Assembly (NCBI GenBank): GCA_022925895.1
Contig: JAKSYS010000546.1
Coordinates: 1-42,435 of the forward strand
DNA length: 42,435 nucleotides
DNA from: Fragilaria crotonensis
Taxonomy: Eukaryota; Bacillariophyta; Fragilariophyceae; Fragilariales; Fragilariaceae
Direction: 5' to 3'
Part shown: positions 597 to 34,240 of the stretch, piece by piece
How positions within the stretch are numbered: the first letter of the stretch is position 1
Layout: each line of letters begins with the position of its first letter
Made by a program: the position numbers and the translations under genes
Notes under the pieces: model-generated
Told to the model about the DNA's origin: nothing
Databases searched by the model: none
The model's input: only the letters and a program-made list of their open reading frames with translations

Positions 597-1786
597 TTAG
601 AAGGGTGGGGCGCCGGCAAGGAGTGCCGCCGCCGGAAGGGTGGGTGCGTCACCAGGGGTGAAGCTGAACGTACCGCCACGGAACATGGCCGCGGCGATGC
701 CGTTCATAACGGGTTGTGCCTGGACATGAAGGTACCGGTACATCTCATCGGAGCGCCAGCGCCCGATGAGGCGTATGCGGTCGCCATCAATGCCAGCACA
801 CAGGAGAGCCATGGCGCCCCCGGAGCGGGTGGAGCGTGCCGAGACGTCTTTGGCAGAGAAGCCTAAGCCGGGGGACAAGGCGACAGCGCTGCGAAGGAGA
901 GCAGTGATGCAGGAGGGCGGAACATATTGCCAGCAGGAGGTAGGAGATGTGCGCGACGCATTCAGGGGAGTGGTGGGAAGAGCATTGTGTTGCCGGAGAT
1001 GGAGAGCTCGGGAGGCGAGGCGCAGGACGGGGCAGAGTGTGGGGTGGCCGGAGCGGCCATGACCGACGGTCTCCCCCCGCACACCGTTCTTTTGGGAGGT
1101 GAAAGTCAAGGTGGCGAAGGTAGCGGCGGTCAAGTCGGCCAGCGGACAGGTCGGAACGTCCAACTTGCGGCCACCGATCCAGAGACCCAAGTCTTGGAGG
1201 CGGAACAAATCGTCAGCGTCCGTCTTGGGGGCTCCCGCATACTCGCCAGGACGTAGCAGGAAGTAGAAGGCAACCACCATGCAGTCCGCTGCCGCAAGGG
1301 CCAAGGGAGTGCCACTGAGAAGAGCTAATTGGGAGGCGCCATGAACGACTTGGAGTGGGAGCGGTTTGACCCGTGTAGGCGGGGGGTCCGCCTTCTTCCA
1401 GGCCTGAAACAGGGAGGAGAGACGAACATCCACGACGCCGAAGGCATTCAGGCGAGGTCAATGGCCCCCACCCCGGCGAACGCCTGCCCCACGCCTCGTA
1501 GGGCGTCCTCCACCGTGCGAGATCGGACGGGCCGGCCGCAGGGCGACAGGAGGCCGGTGCGGTAGCGGTGTGCAAAGTTGGAGTACAGGTATTTTGTCGC
1601 GAGGGTGTCCGTGAGGTCGGTAGCGACCCCGAGATCGGAACAAAAGGTCTCCCACAGTTGCCAGGCGGCTCGAGCTGAGCGATCTCGCTGAGGAGACACT
1701 CGGGCACGCATCGTTGCTTGGATAAGGCACCATTCAAAGCGGAGAGCATGGTGGGCGTCGGGTGGTGTAGTGTCCAAGAGGTGCAC
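597..1786 (-). CDS. Tyrosine recombinase of the YR retrotransposon
   Basis: This would integrate the element's DNA circle in place of a DDE integrase. An N-terminal SAM-like DNA-binding part (1786-1448) is followed by the catalytic domain (1433-597). The catalytic part has FYFLLRPGEYAGA, then SARSTRSGGAMALL (first arginine), IRLIGRW (second arginine) and MYRYLHVQ (tyrosine nucleophile). This is the algal DIRS-type signature. The two parts are in different frames. One extra C near 1457 would join them, giving a length of 397 codons, and the residues on both sides then read as conserved sequence. The break is therefore either a recent deletion or a sequencing error. Family assignment is firm. 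Confidence 0.85.
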
Positions 1787-2790
1787 TGTGGGTAAGCAGA
1801 ATCAAAATGGGTGAGTAAGTCAGAGTCGCTCAAGTGCCACAAGCGGCTAGCATCATCAGCCATCGAGTTGGCGGTGCCCGCAATGTAATGATGACGGGAG
1901 ACGTAGCGATGAGCCCGTTGGTGGAGGGCATTGAGGCGAAGGAGGTAGGCCCGCGCACGATCGGAGGTTGCCGACCCTTTTGTTGCCCAAGAGAGGGAAG
2001 CCTTATTGTCGCCCGCGATCCAGATGGTGCGTTCGTGGACGTGTCGGGCTTGTGCCAGAACATCCTTGTGGGCGATGGTGCCCACGAGTTCCAAGTCCGA
2101 GATGCTAAGCGTGCCGTGAGGGTGGTCAGCCGTGATGAGCGAGGATTGGACGGAAGCTGGGAAAGGGGCGCGCCACACGATGGGTGGAGCGTCCGGCTGG
2201 AGCAGGTCGAAACACACGCCGCCCATGCCGCGGCGACATGCGTCACACGAGCCCGAATCGGAGGGGGACACCGGAACCAGCTCGCGGAGACGAGTGGGGC
2301 GGTGCGCCAACGAGTCGGCTAGGAGACGAAAGTCAGCCATGGTGTCAAAGACATGGCGATTGAGGCGAATGCGCCCCCGGTCACCGCGACTAAGGGCGTC
2401 TTGGAGAACCGAGAAGAGACCTCCGGAGCCGGGAAGTCCGGGCGCCATGGAGCGCAGTTCCCCGAGCAGCTTATGCCATGCCTTGAGGGGAAGGCGCTTG
2501 CGAGGCGGCTGCACTGCATCCAGGAGCTCATAGAGGCAAGCAATGCGGTGAGGGGGTAAGTTGAGGGTCCCCGCCACAGTGTCGAGTTGCCACCCCAAAA
2601 TCATCTTCCGGGTGTCCCAATGTGCATCACCTTGGAGCATCTTTTTGACGGACGAGGGCTCCTTGCGGTGACTGGGGTCAGCGTCTGATAAAGGCCGTAG
2701 GACGGAGTCGATGGCGTGGAGCGTGGCCCTCAACAATCGGCTTTGATGGCTGCCGACGAGTCTGCGCTGTGAGAAGAAAGTCGTCCACAT
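1760..2790 (-). CDS. RNase H region of the YR retrotransposon pol
   Basis: This degrades the RNA strand during reverse transcription. The segment carries ordered acidic motifs typical of DIRS RNase H: SDLELVG, AGDNKASLSW and, near the end, MADDASRLW. It follows directly on the reverse transcriptase but in another frame: the RT catalytic region ends near 2775, and VGSHQSRLLRATLHAID continues in this frame. Beyond about 1760 the frame stays open to 1213 but no longer encodes conserved sequence; the recombinase continues in a different frame. RT, RNase H and recombinase were probably one polyprotein or closely overlapping frames. Confidence 0.75.
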
Positions 2791-3851
2791 AGACGTCGGC
2801 GACAGCTACCGGTGGGCGGCGGGAGGCACCAAAGTGTGCGTTTTGGCTCGCCCACGTGTGCTGGCAGGACGCACCACCAAGGGGTGTGCTACGTTTCCAG
2901 ATGGTAGCTGGCCTCGTCGCGTGGGTGTTGTCCTCGTTGGCGGATGGTGGCGTGTTGGCCGCCTGTTCCAACCGATGTGCCCGCATGGGCCCGCCGTGCG
3001 TCATGGCTGCGTTTGCCAGGTCGCAAGCGGTTTCCGTCAACGTCGTAAAGTGCGGAGGGCTCTCGACCCAACCCATTGGGAGCGCCGAAGGGAATGCCAC
3101 CAGTTGGGTGCTCCCCCCATTGCCACTAAATGGTAGCAAGACGCCGAGCTTGGGTATGTCCCGCCACCACAGCCAAACGCGATAAAAGCCATCAGCAATG
3201 TCTATTTTAGCAAGCTTTGGTGGGCCAAACCGCGGGTCAGCATGCACAATCTGCGTTAAGACACGTTGGAGGGCCCGCCCAAATTGCATTGCCTCGGCGG
3301 GGCCCAGCCGGGCGGTGTCTTGATTGACGCCCGAAAAGGTGTAGTCGACAATCAACCTCGGGCGTCGCTCACGTTGGGGCACCACGCCAAGCGGCGAGAG
3401 TCGGAGCTCGGGCCAATGCTGTACAGCGTCCAATGGCAGTACCGTCCAGTATCCTTGGCGACAAAAATCCACGAGTTCCTCGCAGACAAACTCCGTGTGG
3501 TCGCGAGCGGACTTGTGGCATCCGCGCTTGGCCGCGGTCATGATCTGCTCGTGCGTCCAGGGCGCCGTCCGCATTGGCACGGCAGCGCCTTTCCGTCTGA
3601 GATGGTCCAGTAGGCGGCCTGCCTTGTGCGGGATCCACTGGACTTTGTCATCCAAAAGTCCCACGGGCGTGCTTCACCAGTTTTTCCCATCCAACGGACG
3701 CCAACTCAACACTAGCCACTGCTGCCCACTTACATAAAGTCGCCTCCGCTGGGGACAATTCTGGCTCGACCTGCTTGCGCCGTTTGTTGCCCCCAAAATT
3801 TGACCACTCGTCCGAATTTCTCAACCTCGTCGCGCCCACCGTTGGTGCCAC
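2678..3851 (-). CDS. Reverse transcriptase of the YR retrotransposon
   Basis: The RT palm motifs appear in order: PRLIVDYTFSGVN, KIDIADGFYRVWL (motif A with its Asp), LPMGWVESPPHF (motif B) and VYVDDFLL (motif C, YVDD). The N-terminal stretch starts with an ATG at 3851, 72 bases after the gag stop, and changes frame near 3660 in a GCCCGTGGG context. Downstream of that, GLLDDKVQWIPHKAGRLL is the usual lead-in of this RT group. A second frame change near 2780 leads into RNase H. The catalytic residues are intact, so the element could be functional if the breaks are sequencing errors. Confidence 0.85.
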
Positions 3852-3923
3852 GACGCCTGCCGTGCAGGGGAGATGGCGTCCGGGCGCAGGTGCTCTGGCT
3901 ATCGCACCCGGAGCCGCCTCATG

Positions 3924-6068
3924 TCATTCCAGGCGCAGGTGGGTTGTGGCGTATGCCAGCAACCGCTCGCGCTCTCCTGGGGACGCAAAGGGGACGTGGG
4001 CGCTGCGCCTCCCGCAGGAGTAGCACCCACCTTTACACCACCATCCCACACAAAATTCGTTTCCCGCGTCGTTGCGGGGCGGCCGATGGGCCCGGGTCAG
4101 CGGACCGAGAGCACCCCGCAGCGCCATGTCATTGAATGTGGGATCGCTGACCGGGTTGGTGCTGCGGGTTTGAGCAACAGCCGTGGTTGCCGCCGTCAAT
4201 GCGGAGACTCCACTGGCTACACTTCCACCTCCCCCGGTCGTCGTCGACGTAGTCGTGATTGTGCCAGCCGAACGTGCGGGCTGTATGGCGATGACCGGGG
4301 CTACAACATAGGCTGATGGAAGGGGCACCCAGCCATTTGAAGTGTGGAAGGTTCCCCGTTGCAAGTCCAACAAAAGTTGAGTAAAATCCGGCGAGGCATC
4401 GACAGCAACTGCAATGTCGTCGGCGGCCGCGATCATGATTCCCCGAAGGTATTCGTACACTTGAATTTGAATGGAGCGAAGGATGCGGGCTGGGTATGCC
4501 TGTTGAATTGCAGGAGACCCTGCAAGCCCATGGTACCGGTCCAGTATGAAGGGGAGTTTGTTCTGGTACCCCGTGGCCAGGGCCCAGATGGAACGCACGA
4601 ACGGATGCACAGGTTCAGCTACTCCCTGAAACAAGGTTTGCACCAGGACGGCGTACCTCTGAAGAGTCGTGCCTACCTGGTGCAGGTCCGTCGGGAAGCG
4701 AATCTTCTCCTTGTCCTTGATCGCCTGAATGTCAGATAGTGTCGCACCGTGCATACCTTGGTCCAGCTGTTGCGACACCCCGGCTGACTCCTGCGCCTGA
4801 TAGTAATCTGTAGCGCCAACATAGGTTACCTGAAACGGGTTGCACCCTGTGCCCAAGTCATCGGGTCCAAAACCGGCAAAATTAAAGCTAACAACCATCT
4901 GCTTAAGTGCCGTTGTGACAACAGGGCAAACAAGCTCCGGGTTCAGCATCCGGTCCGCACACACCTTGGCAAACTCCTGTTGGAGGATGGTTTGCTGCTC
5001 CCCCTTCTGGCAGTTCGCCAAGCGATCCCAGATTTGGGCCACCCCAGTTGCCTCCGTCACTCTGTTGTAGCGAAGGAGAACAGGGTAGGTTTCTTTGTAG
5101 GCTTCCCGAATGGTGCGTGGCTCGCGTGTGTGATCGTCGGTATTGCGTGCCGCTGCTAGAGCTTGTACTACGGTTGCAATCTCAGTGGCGCCCAGTACCC
5201 CGGTACCGCCCACCCCCACGGGGTTGCGCAGTGCTGGCAAATCTGACATGATCTTAGAGACGACATAATCATACACCGCCCCCGGCAAGTGAACAGGGTT
5301 CAATGGGTGGAGCACGATGGAGGAGCCGGCTTGTGGGCCCGCCCCGCCTCGGCAAGTGCAGGCCGTCCGGAGCCAAGTCAAGATGTCCGAGCAGGCAACG
5401 TCATTGCCGTCCGCATGGATTGCCCCAGCAATTTCCTGATAAGCTTGTTTTGGTGTGACGCCTTCGCGATGTACCAACAAGGCAGCGTAGCGACTGGGCA
5501 CGAGTTGCACATTTCGGGGCCTCACTACCTCGGTTAGGAGATCCGGCTCCAAGTATGGGCCCAACGGGGCATCCCCATCCCACGTAGCCAAGATCCCTGC
5601 CATGGCATCATGAGTCGGGATGCGTACCTGGGAGGCAACCAAATAGAGTATCGTTGCCGGGACGTCCACTACTGGATACTGATTGGGGCGTAGGTCGCCA
5701 AGGAGGCCGAGTACTCGATCGCGAAACCCCGTGGTGGGTTCGCCTGGAAGCTCCATGTATCGCATGAAGCGATGGAGGATCCTCACTTCAACCACCTCGT
5801 CCAGACGCGCCACCAAGCATAAAAATGCCATGGGCTGGCGGTCGCAAAAGAGAACAGTCTGGTCACGTAGCGCCCCCGGTGTCGGCACGGGTTGCCCGCC
5901 TCCGTCGACGAAACGGTAGCCAGCTAAGTATGCCGCTGGGTGCCCGAAGACGGCATCGCGGGTACGGTCGGAAAACACTTCACGGTAGGACGTAGGCGCA
6001 GTAGGCGCTCGTACGGCCGGTGCCAGTACGGGAGGAACAGCCTCCGGGACAAGGCCTGGGTGTGCCAT
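3924..6068 (-). CDS. Gag-like ORF1 of the YR retrotransposon
   Basis: An uninterrupted 714-codon frame starts 38 bases inside the A1 repeat edge. It has a Pro/Ala-rich N-terminus, a long alpha-helical middle and a Cys/His cluster near the C-terminus (CVGWWCKGGCYSCGRRSAH), which could be a zinc knuckle or CCCH-like finger binding the element's RNA. I assign Gag by position (first ORF, upstream of RT) and by this finger; the body shows no motif I recognise. It is the only intact long frame in the element. Confidence 0.7.
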   Translation of the reverse strand: MAHPGLVPEAVPPVLAPAVRAPTAPTSYREVFSDRTRDAVFGHPAAYLAGYRFVDGGGQPVPTPGALRDQTVLFCDRQPMAFLCLVARLDEVVEVRILHRFMRYMELPGEPTTGFRDRVLGLLGDLRPNQYPVVDVPATILYLVASQVRIPTHDAMAGILATWDGDAPLGPYLEPDLLTEVVRPRNVQLVPSRYAALLVHREGVTPKQAYQEIAGAIHADGNDVACSDILTWLRTACTCRGGAGPQAGSSIVLHPLNPVHLPGAVYDYVVSKIMSDLPALRNPVGVGGTGVLGATEIATVVQALAAARNTDDHTREPRTIREAYKETYPVLLRYNRVTEATGVAQIWDRLANCQKGEQQTILQQEFAKVCADRMLNPELVCPVVTTALKQMVVSFNFAGFGPDDLGTGCNPFQVTYVGATDYYQAQESAGVSQQLDQGMHGATLSDIQAIKDKEKIRFPTDLHQVGTTLQRYAVLVQTLFQGVAEPVHPFVRSIWALATGYQNKLPFILDRYHGLAGSPAIQQAYPARILRSIQIQVYEYLRGIMIAAADDIAVAVDASPDFTQLLLDLQRGTFHTSNGWVPLPSAYVVAPVIAIQPARSAGTITTTSTTTGGGGSVASGVSALTAATTAVAQTRSTNPVSDPTFNDMALRGALGPLTRAHRPPRNDAGNEFCVGWWCKGGCYSCGRRSAHVPFASPGERERLLAYATTHLRLE

Positions 6069-6604: not shown

Positions 6605-7892
6605 TGAAACCGCACCCCACAACCAACGTGCTTATTACATCACTGATTCAATTCCATCTCAATCACATGCTTTTTACCATCAAGCATACATTGCATCCTG
6701 CAATGACCAGGGCAACATCAACTGCCCAAATCCAGTTCCTTCATGGCCTGATATTGACACACCTGAGCAAATGGCAATCAACAGAGTATTCCTCAATGAT
6801 TTCTAACCATCAGTTCCAACATCTCCATACAGGCCAACAACAAGACACACTACACATCAACTACACTGAAAACCTTGTGAATCACACTTCACAGACATTC
6901 CCGAAAAAAAACCAAAAAACAAATCTTCAGATCAAAAGATTCTGTATGTTTCCAAAGCAAATGCTACAACATCAGCAATCAACAGAGATTTGATTCAAGA
7001 GGGTGACAGACTTCCAGTATCGCCCTACATATTTTTACATCTATCCCGATCCTAACTGTCGCCTGTGTGCACAGTAAAACGTTACATCCGTGCTCCAGTA
7101 ACCAGTGCGACACTGCACGACTGGAATCAAAACTCTCGTCGTTTGAATTTCATGTTCATCTCATCCCATGAGATTGAACACTCATTTTCAAACGAGACTC
7201 AACGCCTCGTGTACCGACGACCACACCGCGGCACGAAACGACGTCTCCGAGAAGGAGTGTTCCTCATTGTTCCAAGGAACACTCCCCATCTATCAGACCT
7301 CTCACCTCGTGTCACTCCTCACTCTTCTCACAATTGTCGAAATAATTCATTTTTAGTGCCACTTACCTTTTCGTGAATACTGCACATATTTGCACATGAT
7401 GAATGAATTTGACCATGACGAATTTTACCGCCGGTCGTCAAATTGTCAACCTCACCATACTGTACATATATCAGTAGTCAGTACGACGGTACTCACTATT
7501 ACGACAGCACACAGCACGGCAAGCAGTACAACAGTACTTCTTGCACATCACTTCCTCTGCCCGGCCATAGTCCGTGCACGTCTGAGTCTATCGTTACCGT
7601 ACATAACGATAAACTATTAGACAGTGCCCACTATGACCAAAGCGATATTATTACTAGTCAGTCCCTCGCACATTTATGTAGCGATAGACCGACAGATAGT
7701 ATACGTATCGTTGTCTGTAGCGGTAGACAGCATTGTATTGCTGTACCGTTTATAGACACACTAAGCAGTAGTCAGTGTCGTACTAGACACTTACCTACTG
7801 GGGGCGTACCCCGTAATGGTTACGTCCTGGTTCTTAACCCGAACCTTATGCCGACATGCGCGTCGACAGGTTCCGTTAACCCGAACCCTATC
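6605..7892 (+). repeat. 5' LTR
   Basis: Begins TG and ends CA. It contains a conserved 10-bp-arm hairpin at 7254-7285 (GGAGTGTTCC/GGAACACTCC). Its first ~200 bases duplicate the end of the gag coding frame. Nearly identical to 11632-12919. Confidence 0.92.
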
Positions 7893-7996
7893 ATGGTTGC
7901 TCGCCAGGTTGCTATCCTGGCTGCTCGCCTGGTTACTCGCCAGGAAACCCCGAGCCTACCCAATTTAAATTTGGTGCCTAGCACCAATTTAAATTG
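7893..7996 (+). promoter_or_regulatory. Candidate primer-binding site and leader hairpins
   Basis: TGGTTGCTCGCC follows the 5' LTR directly, the expected place and TGG start of a primer-binding site. The sequence is then repeated with variation three more times to about 7940, with CCAGG/CCTGG arms that can pair. At 7961-7996 lies a 36-base near-perfect palindrome (CAATTTAAATTTGGTGC, loop, GCACCAATTTAAATTG, one bulged base). Such stable leader hairpins are often packaging or dimerisation signals; that role here is inference, and I have not identified the matching tRNA. Confidence 0.5.
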
Positions 7997-8156
7997 TTCT
8001 AACCTTTGTTCTTTTCTATTCCAGCCCTCACCCAATACCAGCAGTACAGCTTCCTACTGCCAGAGAATTGAAATTCTCATTCCTTGTGCTCACTTTTTTT
8101 TGCAAAACTTGTCTAACCCAACTCACCCTTCATCCTCAAACTTTGCAACACTCACC

Positions 8157-11100
8157 ATGGTCAACCCAGCACTAACCCATTTGCCTCCAACTGAGGCCAA
8201 CTGCCCACCCACCCATTGTGTCAAACCAACGACGCACATGGCGAACTATGTCGCCGCCAATGGCGATTTTACAGCTCCTTTTGATGCACTCAAAAATGCT
8301 GTCCTACCTTTCAAGAAGCATTCCTTTTCCTATGTTGCAACAACTAACACTTCTTCTATTGCTGAATCTAACACCTACAGGCCCAAGAAGAGCCCCAAGC
8401 AAGCTCCAGGCCATTTTCAGCACACCGCAACGGCCCTGACTCCTGAGCAAGAGTCCGCCGTCATCTCGCGTTTCCTTGAAACCATCGATCAAGAACGCCT
8501 CCAAGACACCGACACCAACAACAGAGTTAACTACGCCTGCGAACTCTCCTACGAAGCAGGATCTACCGATATGGGTCGCTCCCATTCTCTTTCCATCAAA
8601 CCCGGCGCCATCAACGACATCGCAGCCGCCGAACTCCAAGACATTCAAGACAATTATGCGCGCAATACCTTCGCTTCCACCATCATCCCGCGCCAAGAAG
8701 ACCTCCAACTCGCCTCCTACGAAAGGCCTATCAAGAACCAACGTGTCAGATTCAATTTTAATGTCCAAACCATCAAGATCAAGAACAACAATGAAGTCGC
8801 GAAATGCGACTCTTTCAAGATTCCGGCGACGAACGCCGAAGACCTCCACTACGACAAGAGGGGTATCATCCAAACCGCCTTGAAAAGGGCTCTCCAATGC
8901 ATGTCCTCAATCAAAATTCCGACGAATACTCGAGGAGAAATCGTCCGAACAGTGGACTGCATCAAAGAATTAGCGCAGAACGTACGTTTTACTACGCCGT
9001 GCAAGCGCGAAGCTCGCAAGAGCGATTCTGACGACGGCATCACATCAAGCGAAGCCAGAGCTTCCCACAACATGTCTACTTTCCTTCAATCACCAAGAAT
9101 TGGCGGAGAACAAGCAAAAACAATAATGGCAATAATGGACAAGTTCCAAGTCCAAAATTGCAAATTCTCCTCTGAGTGCCTCTCCAAGTCTCCAGAACTG
9201 CTGAATCCACCTACAAGTGCTACAATGATGCAGCTTCCTATGAGATTGGAAGAACTTCACAGAATTTCTTTCCCAACTTTACCTGAGAAGGTCATTCCAT
9301 TTGTAAGGCACCATAACAAAGCAGTCATACAGCATGACAGCATCCTTATCTTGCCTGTGACCCCTCCGGTTACAACTTCCCATCTAACTGTCAGCACTTC
9401 AATTGCTACTCAGAATGATGAGAACACCCCCGTCCACAGTGACGCCATCAATGGCCCTGTTCCGCACGACGGAATTGGTCCGATGTCTGCACGCGATCCC
9501 GCATTCGAAAATGCCGTTAACCTTAACTTCAACGAAGACATTTCCGATAACGGCCTTGACATAGGTAACATGTCATGCGGCATCCGATGGAAACAAATGA
9601 TGACAGAGATATTCATCAAGACTCCCCGGACGAGAAATCGAAATTCCCTACGTCGAATTCCCTCCCACGCCACCCTACACAGACAAGACTCCCGCGGACA
9701 CCACCTACGAATCTGCGGACATGCTGACGACTACGATTCCAGCACAGCCACAGACTATGTCCGCCTTCCACCATCCGGACACCAAGATCTACCGTGACTC
9801 GGACATCAAGCACAAGAAAACTACCCAATTCTCAGTCACACTTCCACAATTTTTGAACAGAAAGCCTGTAGCTTTTGAAAGCTGCAATCCCTTCAGTTTT
9901 CTGTCAATTGCTGAGAACTCTCACAAGTTGCATCCCACCACCGACAGCGCCTCCGATTGCCTACTATCTACGACTGCAGGCATCACCAACTTGATCAAGA
10001 CAATGTCACAAAATCCCCCAGAATACCCATACACAAACAAGACACCAGAGACACTCCTTCATGTCATTCCTGGTGAGTCTAGTTCTGTGTGTTCAAACGA
10101 TGAAAACAAAGAAAAATCTATTACTTGCAACTCACTTACTCCTCCTGGCCACAGACACAATGATGTGAATGTAGCAACAGAGGATTATTGCAATGTGATA
10201 AGATATGAATTGGAGAAACAACAAAGCCTTTGCAAACACAATGCCCTTGCTGTTCAAACTCCCAGATCATTAATTTTACCGAGAAAAATCCGAAAACACA
10301 GACATCAACAACAACCGCTCCGTCAACCAAAAATGCACCTCCAGAAGTGAATGCTCACCACCAAGAAATGCACCAACTATTTTTCGATGACAATGAGCAT
10401 GACAACAATGATGATGAACTGCCTCAAATTCCTTAACCTCCCCAGATGGTGCCCTGACATCATCAACCAGAACTGACTTCACATATCCACCGATTGAAGA
10501 CCTCACAAGGACGCTCCTGAAATATGCCAAGATTGCAAACCTTCAGGAACTTAGCTTCCCAACTGACCTTCTCTCACGAAGAAGACAATTCAATGCCTTC
10601 ATGGATAACCTCCGAATCATATGCAGCATATCACCATGGACACGCCAAGTCTTTGACCTTTGGCCGAGACAAATCAATTACTCTCATCCATGTGTTGGTA
10701 TTGCAATTTTCAATCTGATTTTCACCAACATCTGTGAGCCCTGCCAGACACATATTATTGACTGTTCCCAGATGCCAGAACAGCCATTCTGACTCTAAGG
10801 CGTCACTGTGCACCGCTCACCCAAGATCACATTGAGCACGCGCGAATCCTTCTACTCCATCAAGCAAGGACATCAAGAAGTTGCAACATCCTACTTGAAT
10901 CGCATTCGGACATTATCGCGCGACTGTTATCACGCCGGAATCACAAACACCGATGCTGATATAATCAAACGAGCCATTCATGGCGGCAGCAATCACCACT
11001 TTTACGCTGCTTCCTACCAACGCTTTGATGCCGACATCCGTCGAGCAGAATTACATGACAAAGAACTACCAACTTTTGCGGAACTTGAGAGCCACTTATT

Positions 11101-11833
11101 GAATATTGATGATTCCTGTGGACTTACTCTCCCTTCCCAAAACCAGCACAATTACAACCAACATGCAAATTCTGCACACCAACCTTCATCAAGTCTGCCT
11201 TTTCAACATCAAGGCACAACTTATGATGATTTTCCACCACATCAACAGCAAGCCTTCACCAGTTCTTCAATGATGCAACCAAATGCAGCCATAAACAAGA
11301 ACAGGCCACCAAATCATTTTCAAAATCAAACAAACAATCTGGCCTCTGAACATCCAAGGAGACAGACTGATGACAATGATTGCAGTATTGCAATGCAACA
11401 GCCTCAACCTTGTCAAAAGCAACATTGCAACACAAGACCTCATTTCAGACACAATTCTGCAAACAATGCAAATCAAAGGCGTCCTCCAGATAATTTCAGC
11501 TCACCCAATGCTGCAAATATTACATGCTACAATTGTGGACAACTTGGCCACTATGCTAATCGATGCATAACCGTCAACAGATCACAAAACAGCAACCACG
11601 GAGGACTCCCAAACACAAATCCAAACAATGATGAAACTGCACCCCACAACCAACGTGCTTATTACATCACTGATTCAATTCCATCTCAATCACATGCTTT
11701 TTACCATCAAGCATACATTGCATCCTGCAATGACCAGGGCAACATCAACTGCCCAAATCCAGTTCCTTCATGGCCTGATATTGACACACCTGAGCAAATG
11801 GCAATCAACAGAGTATTCCTCAATGATTTCTAA
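8157..11833 (+). pseudogene. Gag gene of the LTR element, interrupted by frame breaks
   Basis: A frame starts at ATG 8157 (context CACCATGG) and runs to 9797. The reading continues in other frames, near 9625-10350, 10230-10436, 10449-10790 and 10808-11833. The piece at 10449-10790 contains RRRQFNAFMDNLRIICSISP, the Gag core typical of diatom Copia elements. The last piece continues with YLNRIRTLSRDCYHAGI, a Gln/Asn-rich stretch, and the zinc knuckle CYNCGQLGHYANRC (CX2CX4HX4C) near 11525. The whole would be about 1200 residues. At least four indels break it. The Gag N-terminal 540 residues have no motif I recognise. Some breaks may be sequencing errors, because the near-identical LTRs differ mostly by homopolymer indels. 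Confidence 0.75.
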
Positions 11834-12919
11834 CCATCAGTTCCAATATCTCCATACAGGCCAACAACAAGACACACTACACATCAACTACACTGAAAAC
11901 CTTGTGAATCACACTTCACAGACATTCCCAAAAAAACAAAAAACAAATCTTCAGATCAAAAGATTCTGTATGTTTCCAAAGCAAATGCTACAACATCAGA
12001 AATCAACAGAGATTTGATTCAAGAGGGGTGACAGACTTCCAGTATCGCCCTACATATTTTTACATCTATCCCGATCCCTAACTGTCGCCTGTGTGCACAG
12101 TAAAACGTTACATCCGTGCTCCAGTAACCAGTGCGACACTGCACGACTGGAATCAAATCTCTCGTCGTTTGAATTTCATGTTCATCTCATCCCATGAGAT
12201 TGAACACTCATTTTCAAACGAGACTCAACGCCTCGTGTACCGACGACCACACCGCGGCACGAAACGACGTCTCCGAGAAACGAGGAGTGTTCCTCATTGT
12301 TCCAAAGGAACACTCCCCATCTATCAGACCTCTCACCTCGTGTCACTCCTCACTCTTCTCACAATTGTCGAAATAATTCATTTTTAGTGCCACTTACCTT
12401 TTCGTGAATACTGCACATATTTGCACATGATGAATGAATTTGACCATGACGAATTTTTACCGCCGGTCGTCAAATTGTCAACCTCACCATACTGTACATA
12501 TATCAGTAGTCAGTACGACGGTACTCACTATTACGACAGCACACAGCACGGCAAGCAGTACAACAGTACTTCTTGCACATCACTTCTGCCCGGCCATAGT
12601 CCGTGCACGTCTGAGTCTATCGTTACCGTACATAACGATAAACTATTAGACAGTGCCCACTATGACAAGCGATATTATTACTAGTCAGTCCTCGCACATT
12701 TATGTAGCGATAGACCGACAGATAGTATACGTATCGTTGTCTGTAGCGGTAGACAGCATTGTATTGCTGTACCGTTTATAGGCACACTAAGCAGTAGTCA
12801 GTGTCGTACTAGACACTTACCTACTGGGGGCGTACCCCGTAATGGTTACGTCCTGGTTCTTAACCCGAACCTTATGCCAACATGCGCGTCGACAGGTTCC
12901 GTTAACCCGAACCCTATCA
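11632..12919 (+). repeat. 3' LTR
   Basis: Homologue of 6605-7892. The gag frame terminates inside it at 11833. It also carries the 10-bp-arm hairpin, here at 12284-12316. Confidence 0.92.
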
Positions 12920-12924
12920 AAAGA

Positions 12925-13285
12925 ATACTCCAGTACCATGTACTATGAGGTCTACGGTACCATACCGGTACTCAACTTGGTGAGTATCGGCTCACTTAAC
13001 ATAGGATTGCATTTTAACAAACCCCTTATAAATCGTGTCATCATCTTATGTTGCGTCTCGTCATCTCGTCCCTCGATCGTTCCACAGGAACAACCCGAAT
13101 CAAAAAATGAGAACACTTCATCATGAACACGAATCAAAAAATGAGAACACGACTTCATCATGAACGTTGCAACAAGTTCACAACCAGATCGCGAACATAT
13201 TCAACTTGAATTGAATTGACTTCGCTTTTGCGTAAAGCCAACATTTCGTTTCAATCGTCACTTATGGCGTCAGAAGCTAATAATT
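12925..13285 (+). promoter_or_regulatory. Upstream region of the ankyrin-kinase gene
   Basis: It contains GTAC-rich short palindromes, a TATA-like TTATAAAT near 13026, and a 34-bp unit repeated twice in tandem at 13097-13165 (GAATCAAAAAATGAGAACAC start). An ATG at 13264 opens a 12-codon upstream reading frame (stop 13300-13302) that overlaps the main start at 13286. Promoter assignment is by position. Confidence 0.4.
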
Positions 13286-15922
13286 ATGGCGTCATTCATT
13301 GAATCCAAACAAACGATATTGATTGAGAATGCCCAAAAGGGTAATCTTGACGAGGTTCTTGAGCTCTTGAAAGAGGGGGCAAACGTGAATGCCACAAATA
13401 CCTCGAGTGAAACAGCTCTCATTTTGGCAAGCCGTAATGGCTTTGCGGACGTCGTTAAAGCTTTGCTGAATCACCATGGGGTGAATGTGGATATCAAGAG
13501 TAAAAATGGAAACACAGCTCTCATCAACGCAAGCTATAAGGGCAATTTGGACGTCGTTCATGCTCTGCTGAATCACGACAGGGTTGAGGTGAATATCAAG
13601 GGTGAACATGGCAGCACAGCTCTCATTGCGGCAAGCTGGCACGGCCATTTGGAAGTCGTACGTGCTTTGCTGAATCACCGCAGGGTGGATGTGAACATCC
13701 TGAATAATGTTGGCAACACAGCTCTCATCACCGCTAGCTATAGGGGCCATTTGGGCGTCGTTCATGCTTTGCTGAATCACGACAGGGTTGAGGTGAATAT
13801 CAAGGGTGAACATGGCAGCACAGCTCTCATTGCGGCAAGCTGGCATGGCCATTTGGACGTCGTGCGTGCTTTGCTGAATAAAGACGGGATTGATGTGAAT
13901 ATCCGGAATAATGATGGTGCCACAGCTCTTGAATCTGCTCGCAAAATGGCGAACGACAAAGTTGTGCGTCTCTTGGAGGAACACATGGCGCATGGAGAGT
14001 GCCTAATGCGCTTAGAATTAATGCGCTTATAAAGCACTTGCACCCATCAAAATCGTCCAAAACGTCATCGTTGCAATTTCGAAGTCAATAATTCTGTTAC
14101 ACCCCCTGCCTAAGTATGAAGGTCACTTTTAACGCTCATGACCACAAGATCAAACATGTAACATGTAACACGAATTCTGTGTACTTGTATAGTACCGTAG
14201 CTGAACTACCTTGCACCACACCATGTCTACTCAGTGCTTTTTTGAATAGATCAACCAAATTAGCAGTCTTCGCCGCACTTCGCAACACTCGGAATACTCG
14301 TGTTTTTACCAAGAGATCGTAAAAAGAACCAATAGAAGACCGTCACGCACACGATCTTCGTGCCTGCGATCAACGTACGATACACGCCATTTATGTCACA
14401 CATACAAGACCCACTACGCCCAGCACCAACGCCATCGCCATACATTTTCAATGCAAGAGAAATTAAGATATATAACCTCTCAACTGGTGTTGCTTGCAAC
14501 CTGACTTGAACCGTTATTGATATTTTCAGAAAAGGTAGATGACTCTTTCGGGGAAGGGCAACCCCAACAGAAATTTGGACGATTTTGATTGGTGCAAGTG
14601 CTTTTTATAAGCGCATCAATTCTAAGCGCATTAGGCATATTCTGGCGCATGCGGAGGGTCGCAACGCTACTGAACAGAAGAGGGCTTTAGAAGAAACACA
14701 CCGTCTACAAGAGGAGCCACGCCCTCCAAGATTTGACATGACGTTGGATACGGACCAAAAGCTGCTTCTCAAAGTAATGAACACAACCTCCGCTGATCCT
14801 GTGGAACTATCAGCGGAGTATATCCAGCGTTGCATCACCGACTGCAAAATTGGATCGGGTGCCTTTGGCGATGTTTTACTGGCCGAGGATAATCATCTCC
14901 CCAAAAAGTTTGCTGTCAAGAGGATCAACCTTGAGCGTTGTGACGAAGGCACCGTTAACAATATTCGGGACAGCTTCCAGAAGGAACTTTCGGTACGTTC
15001 TGTACTCTGCTTAGTCTTGTTTGGAACATTGGGACCCTTCAGATGCCAGGTCAAGTTCTAACAAGTTTGCATACACTCAATTCCGCCAGACATTGAAGAG
15101 ATTTCATCATCCTAATATCATTGTCTTGTACGGCTACAATTTAAACGTCAGTCTTAAAGATAAGTTCTTGGTGTATGAATATGCTGCCAACGGCTCCCTC
15201 GATGGCTTCCTCCGGGACGACGGCAATCGAGCCCGCCTGCCTGCAGATACTCGACTGTCTATTATGTTCGAAATGGCGAGAGCAGTGCACTTCTTGCACA
15301 CTGGGGGCTGCAGTGGATGGAAAGTGTTCCATCGCGATATCAAGAGTGCCAACATTTGTCTGGCTGAAGATTTCACAGCTCGCCTTATTGATTGCGGGCT
15401 GGCCAAGTTTGTACCTGATGAGAATTCCAATATCATACCTGGGTCGGTTGCACCGTCTGTTTGGAGCACAAGTGGGTTACCTGCATTTGGAACCCCCGGT
15501 TATATGTGCCCTGAGTATGCAAGAGACAAGTCAGAGGGCATTCCGTGTCCCTATATTGCTGCCTTCGACGTGTTCTCTATTGGTGTTGTCCTGGTTGAGC
15601 TGATCTTGGGATGCTTGATTGGTGGGCAGTCGACAAGGAATGGAATGAAATTTGAGAATGCGTTTCGTAGATACGTCAGGGATAATCGTTATAAGTTAAT
15701 AAAGGATGGGTGTGAAAAGCTCAAGCGTGATGCCGATCCCGCGATCATCTGGAATCCAGAAGCACTTGGCCTCGTTTGCAAAACAGCGATTCGGTGCATG
15801 GCTCCTTTTTTCCCGAGGAAAGGTTGAGCACGGACGACCTCCCAATCAAGCTAAGCCGTGCCGTCCAGTTACAAGCCGGTATACGGAATGCCGAGCCGGA
15901 GGTTCCTGCTGGTTTGGATTAG
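13286..15922 (+). CDS. Ankyrin-repeat protein kinase, split by a MITE
   Basis: Exons as inferred: 13286-13998, 14635-14992, 15090-15922, about 634 residues. Residues 1-235 are about six ankyrin repeats (for example NGNTALINASYKGNLDVVHA). After a linker comes a kinase domain: glycine loop IGSGAFGDVLLAE, lysine FAVKRI, catalytic loop HRDIKSANICL, DCG in place of DFG, and GTPGYMCPEYA. The layout resembles plant/oomycete TKL or receptor-like kinases. Intron 14993-15089 has GTACGT, a CTAAC branch site and CCAG. A Mutator-like MITE (13995-14642) lies between the ankyrin part and the kinase, and could be removed in frame. A run of six T at 15806-15811 breaks the C-terminus. Seven T restores PEERLSTDDLP and a stop at 15920-15922. 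Two 204-bp blocks within the ankyrin DNA are almost identical, indicating recent internal duplication. Confidence 0.8.
13995..14642. mobile_element. Mutator-like MITE inserted in the ankyrin-kinase gene
   Basis: Terminal inverted repeats of about 68 bp (13995-14062 and 14574-14642) begin GAGAGTGCCTAATGCGC on the left and, reverse-complemented, GAATATGCCTAATGCGC on the right. The insert is flanked by a perfect 9-bp target duplication, TGGCGCATG (13986-13994 and 14643-14651). Long TIRs starting with GA and 9-bp duplications are Mutator superfamily hallmarks. The interior shows no transposase. Removing the element plus one duplication rejoins the host gene in frame (EEHMAHAEGRNATEQ). Confidence 0.85.
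13999..14634 (+). other. Possible MITE-derived intron
   Basis: A GT at 13999-14000 in the left terminal repeat and an AG at 14633-14634 in the right one leave the ankyrin and kinase exons in the same frame (GGA GA / G CAT ATT CTG GCG CAT). The donor GTGCCT is weak compared with GTAAGT or GTACGT in neighbouring introns, and the branch candidate TTCTAAG is close to the acceptor. Splicing is possible but unproven; the alternative is that the insertion breaks the gene. Confidence 0.45.
14993..15089 (+). other. Spliceosomal intron in the kinase domain
   Basis: A 97-nt intron with donor GTACGT, branch CTAAC (about 15057-15061) and acceptor CCAG. Joining gives KELS-TLKRFHHPNI, the normal kinase alphaC-beta4 sequence, in phase 0. 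Confidence 0.85.
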
Positions 15923-33259: not shown

Positions 33260-33925
33260 CTATGCGAAAAACTCGTCATGTTGACGGATGCCCTTTCCTG
33301 GGATAAAGTTTCCCTTTGTGTGCTTCGCCCCCTTAAAGGTCTCGGCAGCAGGATTTTTCAAGCCAGCGAGCAAGAAGTCGTCATGTTGACGGATGCCCTT
33401 TCCTGGGATAAAGTTTCCCTTTGTCTGCTTCGCTCCCTTGAAGGTCGCGGCAGCGGGATTTTTCAAGCCAGCTAGCAAGAAGTCGTCATGTTGACGAAGG
33501 CCCTTTCCTGGGATAAAGTTTCCCTTCGTGTGCTTCGCTCCCTTAAAGGTCTCGGCAGCAGGATTTTTCAAGCCAGCTAGCAAGAAGTCGTCATGTTGGC
33601 GAAGGCCCTTGCCTGGGATAAAGTTTCCCTTAGTCTGCTTCGCTCCCTTGAAGGTCTCGGCAGCAGGATTTTTCAAGCCAGCCATCAACATTTCATCGTG
33701 TTGACGAATTCCCTTCCCGGGGATGAAATTTCCCTTTGTCTTGGGTCTCGCCTTGAATGTTTCAGCAGCAGGATTCTTCAAGCCGGCCAAAAGGATGCCA
33801 CCAAGAGCCAAAATCTCGCGGCGGTCGGCGGCAAGCTGAGTCGAGACACGAACTTGCTGCGGAATGGGAGCGAATGCACTGGCAATAGCCAGGCTGGACA
33901 AAAGAAGAACGGCAACTTTCATCAT
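33260..33925 (-). CDS. Plastid-targeted protein of five 35-residue tandem repeats
   Basis: Start chosen at 33925 (MMKVAVLLLSS), which gives a compact signal peptide; an in-frame ATG at 33964 would add 13 residues. The signal peptide ends IASAFAPIPQ, the ASAFAP motif whose Phe marks import into secondary red plastids. After a short transit-like stretch come five repeats of consensus AGLKNPAAETFKGAKxTKG and NFIPGKGxRQHDDFL. They are nearly identical in protein and DNA, and the protein ends just after the fifth. The units are basic and Gly/Pro-rich, without membrane segments. I do not recognise the family. A structural protein binding thylakoid or DNA, or a precursor cut into peptides, are both only guesses. 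The frame is intact. Confidence 0.75.
   Translation of the reverse strand: MMKVAVLLLSSLAIASAFAPIPQQVRVSTQLAADRREILALGGILLAGLKNPAAETFKARPKTKGNFIPGKGIRQHDEMLMAGLKNPAAETFKGAKQTKGNFIPGKGLRQHDDFLLAGLKNPAAETFKGAKHTKGNFIPGKGLRQHDDFLLAGLKNPAAATFKGAKQTKGNFIPGKGIRQHDDFLLAGLKNPAAETFKGAKHTKGNFIPGKGIRQHDEFFA
33276..33800 (-). repeat. 105-bp tandem repeats coding for the plastid protein
   Basis: The unit start (TCATGTTGACG or a variant) recurs at 33276, 33381, 33486, 33591 and 33696, an exact 105-bp period. The first four units are more alike than the fifth, which encodes the N-terminal repeat. Confidence 0.95.
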
Positions 33926-34240
33926 CGTCAAAAAAATATGGTAGCCGACTGACTTCGATGTCATCGACCATCAAAGCCAGAAGGTACTGTCCTCCAGTAT
34001 TCACTTTACGTACGTTTCGACACCACCTCATTGAAGGCAAATCTTAAATCAACTGGTAGGTATTTTCTAAATTAGAGTTATGGTTCCCAATTCCCCAAAA
34101 TGGGATTCGATGTCTACGGTCTACTACAGTACCTGGTACCAGTACAAGGTACAAACACCCTGTGCTAGTAGATATCAATACGCGATCGGCGATGGTGCGA
34201 TGGTGCGATGGTGCGCGACGGACAATGGGCACTGCTATAT
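33926..34240. other. Upstream of the plastid repeat gene
   Basis: About 300 bases with GTACC/GGTAC palindromes around 34125-34150 and a triple GATGGTGC repeat (34192-34213) just before the hexanucleotide array. Confidence 0.45.

Follow-up and report, generated by a model that had tools for sequence, protein, structure and literature searches.

In this study, a DNA window of 42,435 nucleotides from Fragilaria crotonensis was analysed, which is the whole of one contig (C499) in an assembly of 62.1 Mb and 881 contigs. A gene on the plus strand of the window codes for ankyrin repeats followed by a protein kinase domain, and its coding sequence is interrupted by a 648-bp element (Table 1). The terminal inverted repeats (TIRs) of the element are ~67–69 bp long, with 93.75% identity over 64 aligned columns; the outermost 5 nt of the two ends are unlike (GAGAG/GAATA). 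Target-site duplications (TSDs) of 9 bp, TGGCGCATG, flank the element and are perfectly identical. The initial annotation had described such an element with ~68-bp TIRs and a perfect 9-bp duplication, and this description was confirmed. A paralogue of the host gene on contig C87 (L041) has the exact empty site, and the alignment places one TGGCGCATG there in closely matching sequence. The single copy at the paralogue shows that the element inserted cleanly into the window copy. The insertion is real: of two closely related ankyrin-kinase copies, one contains a non-autonomous Mutator-like element. From the empty site and the perfect TSD, it may be guessed that the insertion is recent.

Table 1. 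Features of the interrupted ankyrin-kinase gene and of the inserted element (positions in the window)
Feature	Position	Strand	Evidence
Ankyrin-repeat part of host gene, including left TSD copy	13286..13994	+	Ank_2 E = 2.4e-56; 89% DNA identity to C87
Left target-site duplication TGGCGCATG	13986..13994	.	Single copy at C87 empty site
Non-autonomous Mutator-like element (MITE), 648 bp	13995..14642	+	TIRs, TSD, genome copies
Left terminal inverted repeat	13995..14061	+	Comparison of ends
Intron (GT..AG) proposed by the initial annotation, weak donor GTGCCT	13999..14634	+	Not supported
In-frame stop met by ankyrin frame inside element	14030..14032	+	ORF 13286–14032
Right terminal inverted repeat	14574..14642	-	Comparison of ends
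Right target-site duplication TGGCGCATG	14643..14651	.	Identical to left copy
Kinase part of host gene, one intron, cut short near 15805	14643..15827	+	Pkinase E = 2e-24; 93% identity to C87; alignment
Inferred 97-bp gene-family intron (GTACGT..CAG)	14993..15089	+	Paralogue comparison

The DNA identity between the host copy and the C87 paralogue was 89% over 12926–13929 and 93% over 14643–15913, and the inferred 97-bp intron did not differ between the two. The Pkinase match was computed on 15021–15824. The ankyrin frame ends inside the element and codes for 248 aa. In the alignment with C87, a length change near 15805 shifts the frame of the host copy. Similarity to C87 ends at 15913, while the C87 frame is open for ~390 codons further; the C-terminal part present in C87 is missing from the host copy.

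Substitutions before 15490 were assigned to branches by using four other paralogues. The replacement:silent counts in this region were 5:1 on the window branch, 4:2 on the C87 branch, and 3:1 for changes placed on neither branch, so that both copies look unconstrained here. The corresponding counts in the patch 15490–15725 were 4:10, 4:9, and 13:4, and the two copies differ far more in this patch than before it. After the patch, there was one replacement and one silent change, both placed on neither branch. The patch looks like the result of constraint or gene conversion. It does not agree with a simple decay of the host copy, and its richness in silent changes weakens the pseudogene part of the explanation given below. 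A decaying duplicate is the probable status of the host copy, argued mainly from the frameshift and the missing end.

The ankyrin-kinase family is large: a search with the kinase query gave at least 139 matches in the genome, with each exon counted separately. An LTR retrotransposon-like element lies at 6605–12919, ~360 bp upstream of the ATG of the ankyrin frame at 13286. Its LTRs, of 1289 and 1288 bp, differ by 7 mismatches and 17 gap columns, and a 5-bp AAAGA repeat is found on both sides. It is absent from C87, where ~33 nt of the left flank alone can be matched. Elsewhere in the window, a minus-strand block at 597–6068 has a GC content of ~57–63%, compared with 34–52% in the rest of the window; its frames are retroelement-like by eye, with a weak RVT_3 match (E = 0.12). 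A minus-strand frame of 234 aa at 33260–33964 has an ASAFAP-like leader, a motif of plastid-import signals, and five copies of a ~35-residue unit beginning AGLKNPAA. This motif and the 61 genome matches to PF00504, a light-harvesting family, indicate a photosynthetic alga, perhaps a diatom.

A 20-nt stretch of the TIR (14000–14019) was used as the query for further copies in the genome. It gave 75 matches at up to 3 mismatches and 49 at 0–1 mismatches; the reversed control pattern gave 0. The 49 ends were interpreted as 23 pairs facing inwards, plus 3 ends without a partner; 21 of these close pairs are flanked by a perfect TSD of 9 bp or more. It abutted the ends exactly in 20 pairs and was shifted by one base in L020; no perfect TSD of at least 9 bp was present in L023 and L029. 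A TSD was also looked for in two more distant TIR pairs (L033 and L034), and none was found. By length, 16 of the 23 pairs were miniatures of 590–913 bp, and 7 were long copies of 4.2–8.0 kb. The TIRs spanned 62–77 aligned columns in all nine of the 23 elements that were measured. One TSD was common to three miniatures and another to two, and miniatures with the same TSD are likely segmental copies; counted by shared TSDs, there were 13 independent miniature insertions. The genome-wide TIR matches against none for the control, the TSDs, and the empty site indicated that the element is not a product of chance.

In the best-scored matches, the similarity between the window element and the long copies on C744, C560, C108, and C723 covered 76–90 bp at the left end and ~140–150 bp at the right end. 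The element has the characters of a MITE: it is short and non-coding, it belongs to a set of 16 miniature loci, and in these matches it shares only its ends with the long copies. TIRs resembling those of the family (TGCCTAATGCACTAACAATT, TGCCTAATGCGCTAACAACT, and similar) were also seen, with 26 ends at 3 mismatches, on C19, C35, C55, C175, C364, C385, C575, C638, and other contigs. These are likely sister families.

The same TIR was found in the long copies measured (6 of 7), and their frames were compared with Pfam. MULE-domain matches were obtained with a frame of L025 (E = 0.0039, 18.0 bits against a cut-off of 27.6) and a frame of L026 (E = 0.0067, 17.3 bits against 27.6). The L025 frame also matched a ZSWIM RNaseH-like domain (E = 0.011, 16.1 bits against 27.2). 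An L028 frame matched SWIM (E = 0.0064, 16.5 bits against 19.6) and also the unrelated YabA (E = 0.0044, 18 bits against 30), and another L028 frame matched a CCHC-type knuckle (E = 0.026). All transposase-type matches of the long copies were below the curated Pfam cut-offs, and the 637-aa frame of L026 gave no hit in Pfam up to E = 0.01. A CxC..CxH pattern was visible by eye when the long copies were searched for a transposase. At least 91 MULE-domain matches were found in the genome at E up to 0.001, none of these 91 on the contig of any long copy. The assignment of the family to the Mutator-like superfamily is suggested by the TSDs, the TIRs, and the weak domain matches taken together. The term Mutator-like MITE in the initial annotation was supported by the 9-bp length of the TSDs, the long TIRs, the exact empty site, and the long partners, whose frames weakly match MULE/SWIM-type domains. 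One long member, of 4.2 kb (L024:2373–6552), has the family ends and a TSD, with an ankyrin-repeat frame on one side and a frame that is ankyrin-like by eye on the other; its inner frame of 714 aa had no Pfam match at E 0.01.

The position of the copies relative to genes was investigated with the 21 insertions that have a TSD, of which 18 were independent by TSD. Open frames of at least 90 aa on both sides of the empty site were found for the window copy only; at 50 aa, L011, L018, and its copy L020 passed too. The open-frame test is a proxy for exonic insertion, by which genes with short exons could be missed. The initial annotation had proposed a genome search for further TIR copies; 23 close pairs were found, and one of the 21 insertions had the 90-aa frames on both sides. 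A set of genic introns derived from element copies in several genes, as expected of introners, was not found among the 21 insertions by this proxy.

The nearest frames, up to five each, were listed for the 19 other loci, and the distance to the start codon was taken for eight of them, chosen by eye. For six of the eight, a candidate start codon followed 29–298 nt downstream of the insertion. L018 lay at a candidate start codon, with the candidate ATG within its TSD, and L021 was ambiguous. The insertion of L013 is 55 nt upstream of the start of an RPB11-type gene, and that of L022 is 29 nt upstream of the start of a short-chain dehydrogenase gene, both identified with Pfam. Also by Pfam matches, the neighbours of L009 are a TP_methylase protein, presumably diphthine-synthase-like, and a UBA protein; those of L021, L018, and L017 are an amine oxidase, an L15/L27A-type ribosomal protein, and a DUF2780 protein, respectively. 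Two of the nine neighbour peptides had no Pfam match. The positions of these copies would fit the preference of MULEs for inserting within genes or close to them (PMC6446971).

The initial annotation had proposed that the element acts as an intron, with a GT in the left TIR and an AG in the right TIR. Both dinucleotides are present near the ends, and they occur at the same places in all 23 close pairs. Excision of 13999–14634 (636 bp) would leave 12 element bases and the extra TSD, a residue of 21 nt or 7 codons, and would join the ankyrin and kinase parts in an open frame, as had been stated. Wherever the TSD directly abuts the ends (20 pairs), the residue would be the same 21 nt (12 + 9), whatever the inner length. 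A precedent in an alga is the Aureococcus introner, which carries both splice sites and adds 12 nt, as given in part of PMC9860276. However, the ends may be fixed by the needs of transposition alone, so the conservation of GT and AG is no argument for splicing. On the opposite strand, a GT was present in only 3 of the 23 pairs and lacking in 20.

The donor had also been called weak, which was correct: GTGCCT agrees with the consensus at 2 of the 4 positions from +3 to +6, a score reached or exceeded by 799 of the 2522 GTs on the plus strand of the window. Ten introns of the gene family, one from the window and the others from 9 of the 11 paralogue loci (the exon borders of L047 and L051 were not matched by the text pattern), had the donors GTAAGT (6), GTACGT (3), and GCAAGT (1). 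They all ended in CAG and were 70–102 bp long, against 636 bp for the proposed intron; these ten represent one homologous kinase position read from the frames and are no independent sample of genome introns. Dinucleotide shuffling of the element produced an open in-frame GT..AG within 12 nt of both ends 242 times in 2000. With the right end rebuilt as the inverted copy of the shuffled left end, the figure was 167 in 2000, so that such a pair arose in 8–12% of shuffles. In the terminal regions of the element, 36 GT/AG pairs were scanned, and 2 were open in frame. Of the earlier proposal, the MITE is supported and the intron is not, given the poor donor, the chance level, the single exonic-type copy, and the frameshift and missing C-terminus of the host. 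The action of the element as an intron was not supported by anything examined, and an introner that is spliced out at its own ends with the addition of 7 codons appears highly unlikely. An introner family was rejected as the working explanation, since the window copy alone of 21 has the 90-aa frames on both sides. A wider version seems improbable to the same high degree: a MULE family with both splice sites in its TIRs, any sense insertion of which into an exon could be spliced out to leave 7 codons each time, would be an introner in the making with a single clearly exonic copy.

Splicing may instead use sites outside the element ends. The pre-mRNA of some maize transposon insertions is spliced at host or cryptic sites around the element. 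At the present locus, a stronger donor, GTGCGT at 13964, and an acceptor ending at 14677 would keep the frame open, with host codons dropped. This was the single open pair in a scan of stronger donors with YAG acceptors, and the host copy is frameshifted downstream; splicing at host-encoded or cryptic sites is very unlikely. The truncated ankyrin frame, with its short TIR-coded tail, could also be a kept functional product. The frame 13286–14032 is open, and Pfam Ank matches 5 stretches of the host part; this reading is considered exceedingly unlikely.

The insertion looks like an ordinary gene-breaking insertion of a MULE MITE. The element was presumably mobilised in trans by the MULE transposase of a long relative that shares its ends. 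Its target lay within the coding part of an ankyrin-kinase gene that exists in two duplicated copies, and 9 bp of this target were duplicated. Should the interrupted gene be transcribed with the element left in the message, translation would end 12 codons beyond the final undamaged codon of the host. The kinase part would be cut off, and an ankyrin-only protein or a degraded transcript would be expected. As the interrupted copy is probably a duplicate in decay, clear signs of selection for removal of the element by splicing are not seen. Very probably, therefore, a MULE MITE mobilised in trans broke the coding sequence of one duplicated, probably decaying ankyrin-kinase gene, with no clear selection for its removal by splicing. 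Splicing of the element, if shown, would be relevant to the origin of introns from DNA transposons; this is not where the present evidence points. Almost all TSDs of the MULE/MITE family documented here are perfect, and an exact empty site is available, which is useful for dating and mobility studies.

Insertions of Ds/dSpm in maize are spliced from pre-mRNA, as shown by transcripts. The present element is likewise a DNA transposon within an exon; the maize cases are based on transcripts, whereas the present element is known from DNA alone, a difference that also separates it from the Aureococcus introners. Like those introners, as far as they are described in part of PMC9860276, it is a TSD-flanked algal element whose ends could provide both donor and acceptor, and its excision could leave an in-frame residue of constant length. 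It differs from them in its weak donor, its frameshifted host, and the lack of a genic intron set by the search made here; introner families of at least four introns were kept in that study. The TSDs of MULEs are 8–11 bp, and MULEs in diatoms are mentioned, in the part of PMC6446971 considered. The row "MULE-Diatoms" of that source gives TIRs of 123–124 bp and "No TSD and not indicated", in contrast to the TIRs of 62–77 bp and the 9-bp TSD of the present family. The present family was matched to no named one. Its 9-bp TSDs, the TIRs of 62–77 bp in the elements measured, the ends common to long members with weak MULE/SWIM matches, and the insertions close to genes in some cases are all consistent with MULE MITEs, with no essential difference seen.
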